Part shown: piece after piece, positions 30,826 through 32,850 of the stretch
How positions within the stretch are numbered: position 1 is the stretch's first letter
How the letters are laid out: each line of letters opens with the position of its first letter
Assembly: GCF_000424465.1 (NCBI RefSeq)
Contig: NZ_AUJY01000002.1
Span: 248,001 to 312,000, forward strand
Direction of reading: 5' to 3'
DNA from: Butyrivibrio hungatei NK4A153
GTDB taxonomy: Bacteria > Bacillota > Clostridia > Lachnospirales > Lachnospiraceae
Length of the DNA: 64,000 nt
The notes under the pieces: generated by a model
Databases searched by the model: none
The model's input: only the letters and a program-made list of their open reading frames with translations
What the model was told of the DNA's origin: nothing
Position numbers and translations under genes: made by a program

Positions 30826-30920
30826 GATTGTAGATTTCATTAATTTTATTGCTCTTATAGGAATGTTTTGACGGATTGGTGTTAAAATATCTTTTGGTGA
30901 AGTATCAGCGAGGAGGAAAA

Positions 30921-32111
30921 ATGAAGAAGAGAATAATAAGTTTAATTGTGGGTGTGACGACAGTAGCAATGCTAACTTGTGGATGTACTGCGATCAATAA
31001 CGATGCAGACACTGCACTGGAATTTATAAACGACGATCTTGCAACAAGCATGACAGGTAAAAGCGATGAGGCTTCAGAGGCAGGCACATTGGTTTTGGCA
31101 GAAGATATTTATAAGCCTACACTTGATGAAGCAGCAGCCGCAGCTTCAGTGGAGGAAACTAAAGAGGAAGAACCTCAGGAGCAGGTAGATGAAGACAAAG
31201 TAGTAATGGTATTTATCGGCGACAGCCAGATTGAGAACGGAAGAGACAGCGGCAACGATCTTGCTTCTCTTGTATCTGAAAGAGTTCCGAATTCTGTCGC
31301 ATATAATCTCGGAATCGGTGGAACAACCGCTGCACTTGAGCATTCAACTACAGATTCATCATTGTCTAAGTGGGATTCTATTTCTTTTAACGGAATAACC
31401 TACGGTCTTGCGGGAAAGATTGACAGAGACAGAGTTTTTCAGAATTATCCCCACGTTCTGAGTAATATGAATAATATAAATCCTGAGAAGGTTGATTATT
31501 ACTTTATAGAATATGGTGCAAACGATTTTTTTGATAAAATGCCGCTTGATAAAACACAGTTTGAAGGCAATCCGCTTCATTCATATTATGAAGCTCTTGA
31601 AGAAGGCGTGAGAACTCTTAAGGAGATCAGTCCCAATGCAAGAATTGTCCTTATGACTCCTTTCTACGGAATTTATAAGGATACCAATGGAAAGTTCCTT
31701 GGCGATTCTTATGTAGTAAGTTACGGAATAGATACTCTTGCAAATTATGCAAGAAAAGCACTTAATGTAGCGGAAGATCTTGATCTTATCGATTTTGATG
31801 CGATGAACGACGACAAGAAGTGCGATCTCTACCTTGATACGGCGGAAGAGTATCTTTTGGACGGAACGCACCTCACATTAAAGGGAAGACAGGTATTTTC
31901 AAGGCTTCTTGCTCATATCCCCAACTACTATGAGGAAAATGAGCCATTCGCATACCTTGAGAATGACACTATCAAAATTGGCCAATTCGATCCCGATGAG
32001 TATTTCATGATCTCGGATGACAAGCTCAGAGATAATTATCCCGAGGCTTATGAGAAGCTCAAATCCGGAGCATATCCGCTCGCCAGAGAGCACGGCGCAG
32101 GAGCTGAGTAA
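30921..32111 (+). CDS. GDSL/SGNH-hydrolase lipoprotein
   Basis: 396 residues. The signal peptide ends in LTCGC (lipobox), followed by an acidic spacer (about residues 25-90) rich in Glu and Ala. The SGNH domain has block I FIGDSQ, the oxyanion region NLGIGGTT, block III EYGANDFF and block V DGTHLT, so the Ser-Asp-His set is complete. Such proteins deacylate or transacylate polysaccharides or lipids; the substrate is unknown. AGGAGGAAAA before ATG 30921 fixes the start. Its stop codon lies at the outer edge of the first giant palindrome (32106-32371). Confidence 0.85.
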   Translation: MKKRIISLIVGVTTVAMLTCGCTAINNDADTALEFINDDLATSMTGKSDEASEAGTLVLAEDIYKPTLDEAAAAASVEETKEEEPQEQVDEDKVVMVFIGDSQIENGRDSGNDLASLVSERVPNSVAYNLGIGGTTAALEHSTTDSSLSKWDSISFNGITYGLAGKIDRDRVFQNYPHVLSNMNNINPEKVDYYFIEYGANDFFDKMPLDKTQFEGNPLHSYYEALEEGVRTLKEISPNARIVLMTPFYGIYKDTNGKFLGDSYVVSYGIDTLANYARKALNVAEDLDLIDFDAMNDDKKCDLYLDTAEEYLLDGTHLTLKGRQVFSRLLAHIPNYYEENEPFAYLENDTIKIGQFDPDEYFMISDDKLRDNYPEAYEKLKSGAYPLAREHGAGAE

Positions 32112-32371
32112 CGCCGGGGGTATATGTAAACGGACGACCTATATAGCCATTTATAACAGTCGTTTCGTGTGTTGACATTCAAGACATAAAAATTCAGAGC
32201 TACTTATTCTTCGCTCCAAAACTCGCCCATAGATGGGCTCAAACAGTTGGAGCGAGAACAGAATAAGCAGCTCTTCTTTTTTGTGTTCTTGAATGTGACA
32301 ACACGCGAAAAGACTGTTATAAATGGCTATATAGGTCTGTTGTTTATTATGTACCGCACGGCGTTTACTAA
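32106..32371. repeat. giant imperfect palindrome, copy 1 (about 265 bp)
   Basis: The left half (from the end of the SGNH gene) is complementary to the right half almost throughout. A perfect 26-bp pairing joins 32136-32161 with 32312-32337, outer pairing reaches GTAACGCCG and CGGCGTTTAC, and the inner arms carry GTTGACATTCAAG (32171-32183) against CTTGAATGTGACAAC (32288-32302). The centre is a 63-bp core (32204-32266) itself made of TTCGCTCC...GCCCAT and ATGGGC...GGAGCGAG. No open frame of interest lies inside. Transcribed, it would form one very long hairpin. Confidence 0.88.
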
Positions 32372-32850
32372 GGTGTTACTTGCGCTATAGATTCTTAAAT
32401 AATGTAATTGCTATAAAGCAAATATTGTGATAAAATGTTAATACTTTGTTAATGTAGCGTATACTTATGAAGGCGTACAGGTGGGCTATTCGCCACTACG
32501 CAGTTCCATAAGTCAGGTTTTCACAGTATTTATGTGAGTTGTAACATTCAAGAGCATAAGCAAGCGGAAATCTTTATTCTGTTCTCGCTCCGTTTGTTTG
32601 AGCCCATTTATGGGCGAGTTTAGGAGCGAAGAATAAAGATTACCGCTTGCTTATGCCTTGAATGTCAACGAACATAACCCCTGTGAAAACCTGACTTATG
32701 GAACGCATATCGCCAATATCCCCCAAATGTCGCACATGGAGTGGCATGGAGTGCTATCTTGAAGAATGTTATGGGGTAGGGTATACTACTATTATTGTTC
32801 GTCTCCAAGATAATGAACGGACGATTATTTAGAAAATGAGGGTAAATGTG
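32112..32850. other. 739-base gene-free stretch
   Basis: Holds two giant palindromes (32106-32371 and 32472-32733) separated by about 100 AT-rich bases (32372-32471) with TATACT at 32460-32465 but no well-spaced -35. After the second palindrome, TATACT at 32780-32785 lies upstream of the FAD-enzyme gene and may be its -10. No credible coding frame on either strand and no RNA gene known to me was recognised. Confidence 0.7.
32472..32733. repeat. giant imperfect palindrome, copy 2 (about 262 bp, inverted relative to copy 1)
   Basis: A perfect 23-bp pairing joins 32504-32526 with 32681-32703, and a perfect 14-bp pairing joins 32554-32567 with 32643-32656. Weaker outer pairing extends to GGCGTAC and GTCGC. 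The central 63 bp (32574-32636) is the reverse complement of the copy 1 core with about 58 of 63 bases identical, and the same GTTGACATTCAAG-type arms flank it (32538-32552 and 32657-32669). The outer stems of the two copies differ strongly in sequence but each remains self-complementary. Confidence 0.88.

Follow-up and report, generated by a model that had tools for sequence, protein, structure and literature searches.

Inward-facing twin giant hairpins in Butyrivibrio hungatei as a probable copy of a non-autonomous mobile DNA element

Two giant palindromes, W1 and W2, lie side by side between two genes of Butyrivibrio hungatei NK4A153, and together they probably form a single copy of a mobile DNA element that is non-autonomous and consists of two giant hairpins facing inward. 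We favour this reading because such hairpins are dispersed, are polymorphic between species at matching sites, and keep their tip across phyla.

The twin hairpins at the locus

The window, that is, the whole stretch of DNA analysed here, is 64,000 nucleotides long. Its features of interest and the two flanking genes are as follows.

30876..32111, + strand: flanking gene, GDSL-like lipase/acylhydrolase (context only)
32106..32371, + strand: W1, giant hairpin 1, apical motif on the + strand, nine-copy family; fold energy -151.7 kcal/mol, z -21.4
32134..32161, + strand: W1 outer 5' arm, common to a second hairpin family, Y
32221..32246, + strand: W1 conserved apical motif ACTCGCCCATAGATGGGCTCAAACAG (280221-280246 of contig C2), which recurs across phyla
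32256..32259, + strand: 4-nt bulge GAAC in the W1 3' arm, just below the apical stem, placed by alignment and structure
32312..32340, + strand: W1 outer 3' arm, common to family Y
32372..32471, no strand: spacer separating W1 from W2
32472..32733, - strand: W2, giant hairpin 2, apical motif on the - strand, so that the pair faces inward; fold energy -140.5 kcal/mol, z -16.6
32594..32619, - strand: W2 conserved apical motif ACTCGCCCATAAATGGGCTCAAACAA
32836..34434, + strand: flanking gene, flavin amine-oxidase-like protein (context only)

The first-pass annotation had described two palindromes of about 265 bp each with perfect stem blocks of 26, 23 and 14 bp. Both palindromes are real, and the blocks are exact reverse complements (32136-32161/32312-32337, 32504-32526/32681-32703 and 32554-32567/32643-32656). 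Folding gave the expected long stems, with no shuffled sequence as good as either W1 or W2. A scan of all 64 kb of the window for exact 14-mer inverted repeats with arms no more than 300 bp apart found them only in the 300-bp bins of W1 and W2. W2 is also an inverted copy of W1 (32151-32322 against 32518-32689, 76% over 172 nt). In line with the claim that the palindromes encode no protein, no credible gene was found between the stop of the GDSL-lipase-like gene (32111) and the start of the amine-oxidase-like gene (32836). An Rfam covariance-model search of the window returned no match at the gathering score. A promoter-like site, TTGAAG-17-TATACT, was observed at 32759-32787, between W2 and the downstream gene; the stretch that contains it is also present in relatives, both with and without hairpins.

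A dispersed family with a conserved tip and changing stems

Searching the 3.37-Mb source assembly with W1 revealed about nine dispersed copies. Among 79 Butyrivibrio genomes searched, three more carried many copies (B. hungatei XBD2006, Butyrivibrio sp. M55 and LB2008), about 25 further copies together. The 35 Butyrivibrio copies have 47-153 stacked pairs around a single centre, mostly about 90-150, and span mostly 213-369 bp; the palindrome of a REP element measures 20-40 bp. Hairpins closer than 600 bp to each other, among 140 distinct hairpins, formed 13 pairs, and all 13 face inward, + then -; two of the 13 are the orthologous pairs of the window and XBD2006. The inward-facing twin is the canonical layout and the unit, and single hairpins also occur and move.

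What is conserved in these copies is the tip, not the stem. The tip reads RAACTCG-[mini-hairpin]-CTCARACAG, and beneath it lies a stem of about 10 bp, often followed by a 4-nt bulge on the 3' arm. In a core alignment of 27 copies, to which a fifth Butyrivibrio genome contributed one, 95.9% of cells were paired and 40 of 54 core pairs showed two-sided changes. The cells with two-sided changes numbered 188, against a shuffled mean of 49, and sliding the partner columns abolished the covariation signal. Stem blocks of 10-15 bp are swapped whole and simultaneously in the two arms. Three features are nearly constant across copies: the tip (AAACTCGCCC..GGGCTCARACA), the 4-nt 3'-arm bulge and a block TTGAYATTCAAG. 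The stems are free to change provided that the arms pair. At 3 of 10 sites (site A, L012/L090 and L080/L088), the identity between the arms of one copy exceeded the identity between orthologous copies.

The copies lie mainly between convergent or same-direction genes: 15 of the 35 sit between convergent genes, 9 between same-direction genes in sense, 9 in antisense and 2 between divergent genes. Divergent promoter regions are nearly avoided, and orientation relative to genes is neutral.

We found two copies with matching empty sites in relatives, which indicates that the element has moved. The copy at L010 in the source assembly is missing from four genomes (G004, G069, G022 and G050), with contiguous flanks in M55, and the copy at L075 in G004 is missing from the source assembly, G069 and G050, where both flanks were found. 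Both insertions directly follow a terminator-like hairpin, and the empty sites carry this hairpin too. An absence can also reflect loss: the 'empty' site A of M55, which has lost most of the unit, is an internal deletion; at site B, only a short remnant hairpin is left in the source assembly and G004. A target duplication is possible at one site only and is at best 3 bp (TTA). Terminal inverted repeats are clear in the G695 clade described below, and the Butyrivibrio units are without clean ones.

At the W1 site, M55 and LB2008 have a hairpin with the outer arms of W1 and an unrelated interior, and this interior together with the W1 outer arms makes up a second dispersed hairpin family, Y. Since the arms at the W1 site belong to family Y, W1 and the copy on contig C4 (L009) are composed of Y arms and a core of the present family, X, and the Y/X join lies at equal depth in both arms of each. 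Family Y itself consists of giant hairpins with arms GGACGACCTRTATRGCC..GGCYATAYAGGTCTGTTG and a tip of about TCCTTTC.ACGTTG.TCAG.GAAGTC, unlike the X tip; it was seen at L085 (about 2568-2758), L186 (the LB2008 W1 site), L016 (near 1076-1316) and L009 (near 2190). A remnant in G050 had suggested a native terminator hosting the hairpin in its loop, an idea dropped because the W1 outer arms are those of the dispersed family Y.

The tip and the twin layout beyond Butyrivibrio

The twin palindromes are neither unique to the W1/W2 locus nor confined to the Lachnospiraceae. The exact Butyrivibrio-type tip was found in one Spongiibacteraceae MAG and three times in Ca. Saccharibacteria YM_S32, in each case on top of long hairpins with unrelated stems (the stem being partly decayed at L045). 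Relaxing the loop of the tip gave a general motif, ACTCGC-N-GCTCARACAG, which matched 30 of 398 Bacillota genomes, several of them with many copies, and 15 of 299 Pseudomonadota genomes; a reversed-pattern control gave only 6 hits in the same 398 Bacillota genomes. Single motif hits are near chance level, whereas multi-copy hits are mostly real hairpins, and by our count the genera of Bacillota with real motif hairpins number at least 11. Ilyobacter (Fusobacteriota) also carries the tip motif. The Butyrivibrio rule of an apical stem of about 10 bp followed by a 4-nt 3'-arm bulge is kept in several unrelated copies from several genera. Judged by sequence, the tip recurs on completely different stems in at least four phyla, namely Bacillota, Pseudomonadota, Fusobacteriota and Saccharibacteria.

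Twin units were also found in G695, where five of them lie in unrelated flanks and have in common a subterminal hairpin, TTACTTTCTTTGC..GCAAAGAAAGTAACC, as well as their ends, about GTTGGCCGGGGNCGCCCGGCAGCG and its complement; more such twins are present in relatives of G695. In a G778 twin (L315:2034-4218), the halves are 1.66 kb apart around an ORF for a lipoprotein-like protein of 421 aa, for which a Pfam search gave no match. This ORF is possibly cargo, or the halves are possibly two separate units. The G778 unit was rejected as an autonomous copy, the enclosed ORF not being a transposase.

A nearly perfect palindrome of about 550 bp was noticed on plasmid pNK81 of Caballeronia sp. NK8 (L298:2481-3030; -482 kcal/mol for 720 nt). 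It has the same subterminal AAAGAAAGTAACCAAAG hairpin as the G695 twin, without the CTCG..CTCARAC tip, and blastn with the G695 twin hit 22 places on pNK81. Phage carriage was set aside: no match was obtained with the Butyrivibrio-type motif in viral contigs or with the G695 twin in a phage collection. A short-loop motif, ACTCGCTNCGCTCARACAG, occurs in sixteen viral contigs (L241-L256).

Mode of spread, alternative readings and known repeats

We propose that each unit would fold into a hairpin when its strand is single at the replication fork, and that a trans-acting enzyme may recognise the tip together with the bulge beneath. Excision or copying of the unit as single-stranded DNA would follow, after which it would join a new site, and copies would survive best downstream of genes, where they may do little harm. 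The complementarity of the arms would be maintained by template switching during replication, with one arm serving as template for the other, by a restriction of mobility to well-formed hairpins, or by both. A near-simultaneous change in two arms is what template switching predicts (PMC8794818), and selection for foldable single strands would give a similar pattern. By analogy, the best guess for the enzyme is an HUH single-strand transposase, although the association was not found when tested. The tip motif was absent beside the Y1/RAYT genes examined; no Y1_Tnp gene was found in M55, which has about 12 hairpin copies, and G325, G086, G440, G145 and the Spongiibacteraceae MAG gave no Y1_Tnp match. 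A Y1/RAYT partner in cis was rejected on these grounds, with the motif absent at the Y1 loci examined and several hosts without Y1_Tnp. A shared neighbour gene was likewise rejected: apart from a few general families, none is found repeatedly near the hairpins of different genera.

We read the hairpins as a DNA-level element in preference to a structured RNA, because two-armed changes occur with almost no G-U intermediates and there is no coding-strand preference. In the core, G-U pairs fill 16 of 1446 cells, about equal to the roughly 19 cells with A-C mismatches. Over whole arms the taxa disagree: G-U-type mismatches favour the motif strand by 130:75 in Butyrivibrio, and the corresponding count in unrelated taxa is 64:88; the copies counted are related, and their events are not independent. 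It is unlikely that the hairpins are a structured non-coding RNA or 3'-UTR element that is co-transcribed with the upstream gene and either has its tip bound by a conserved protein, serves as an RNase III substrate, or terminates or stabilises the transcript. The strong covariation, the conserved one-sided bulges, the position of most copies downstream of genes and the G-U excess on the motif strand in Butyrivibrio would all suit such an RNA. However, sense and antisense copies between same-direction genes are equal (9 and 9), wobble pairs are rare, other taxa show no G-U excess, Rfam holds no match, and the copies at L010 and L075 sit beyond the gene's own terminator-like hairpin. A sense-strand 3'-UTR function was rejected in view of the neutral orientation, and a known RNA family in view of the absence of an Rfam match. 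Of the natures that the first-pass annotation had suggested, a foldback element or DNA cruciform site fits, whereas a very long hairpin RNA is unsupported, there being neither a gene-strand preference nor a consistent G-U signature.

If the palindromes were passive, with template switching making and homogenising the inverted repeats and neither transposition nor selection on the tip, multi-base changes in both arms at once would be the expected footprint (PMC8794818), and such changes are seen. An almost invariant tip on unrelated stems in several phyla, as well as insertion at new sites, nevertheless needs recognition and dispersal. As far as sequence comparison goes, the conserved tip already largely refutes this passive origin, which we regard as very improbable.

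Within the mobile-element reading, the hairpins might be selfish repeats spread by HUH transposases of the Y1/RAYT family, as TIRtron-associated TIR repeats (PMC3733652) whose transposase many hosts have since lost; we hold this sub-case to be possible but doubtful. TIR repeats are long terminal repeats with partial self-complementarity, which are in addition found scattered as inverted dimers (PMC3733652). The hairpins share with them the inverted dimers, the long self-complementary repeats and the intergenic placement, and many host genomes have some Y1_Tnp gene. Yet the hairpins examined have no tyrosine-transposase gene between or beside them, the motif is absent next to the Y1 genes examined, several hairpin-bearing genomes are without Y1_Tnp, and no TIRYT (RAYT-like) gene flanked by hairpins was found in the genomes examined. 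Moreover, the stem sequence is unconstrained here, and GGGGWSAS, a motif common to some TIRs, is missing from all 35 Butyrivibrio copies and present in 1 of 5 G695 twins.

By analogy, the mobile element most likely works like a giant REPIN or MITE. REPINs are inverted REP doublets mobilised by RAYTs (PMC3116915), and the present hairpins resemble them in being intergenic, non-coding dispersed palindromes, often downstream of genes, with an inverted pair as the unit; the 13 of 13 close pairs that run + then - make up such an over-represented doublet. They differ in that the hairpins are about 200-300 bp long, against 20-40 bp in REPINs, that the tip and not the stem is conserved, and that no RAYT is nearby. 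REPs carry a GTAG or CGTC tag at one end; here neither tetranucleotide, read on either strand, reaches more than 4 of the 35 copies in any alignment column, and identity with REP/REPIN fails on tag, size and RAYT partner.

With MITEs such as ERIC, YPAL, NEMIS, RUP and bcr1, the hairpins share non-coding, intergenic and dispersed placement, strong hairpins and empty sites in relatives, and the G695-clade twins share terminal inverted repeats as well. The behaviour fits a MITE, with terminal repeats clear only in the G695 clade. Unlike MITEs, in which the ends are conserved and the interiors vary, here the centre of the palindrome is conserved and the arms vary; there are also two nested palindromes, and the same tip is found in several phyla. 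A possible further likeness is to integron attC sites, which are imperfect hairpins with one-sided extra bases, in which structure is kept and sequence varies; they differ in that no cassette array was seen around our hairpins.

A literature search with the motif and the G695 end strings, among open-licence papers only, so that novelty is unproven, returned no relevant paper, and the repeat is apparently unnamed. The earlier statement that no named class has this layout stands for Rfam and the literature searched but not for behaviour, which is MITE/REPIN-like; the likeness to known MITEs is one of kind and not of identity.

We tentatively extend the mobile-element reading to a class of single-strand-hairpin elements in at least four phyla, with one tip, RAACTCG-[hp]-CTCARACAG, plus a bulge, stems of any sequence, a mobilising enzyme family with no link to such repeats so far, and palindromes kept by template switching. 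The conserved tip points to a binding protein that may be conserved across phyla. In the stems, change in two arms can be followed in many independent cases, which bear on how compensatory changes arise. If the reading is right, the hairpins would be a clean natural test of the survival and symmetry of long DNA palindromes in bacteria, and a widespread repeat would account for many of the long hairpins between genes and perhaps for some breaks in assemblies. Five contigs of G286 (C8, C12, C23, C29 and C42) end within tens of bases of the hairpin motif, and from these contig ends the palindromes may be breaking assemblies.
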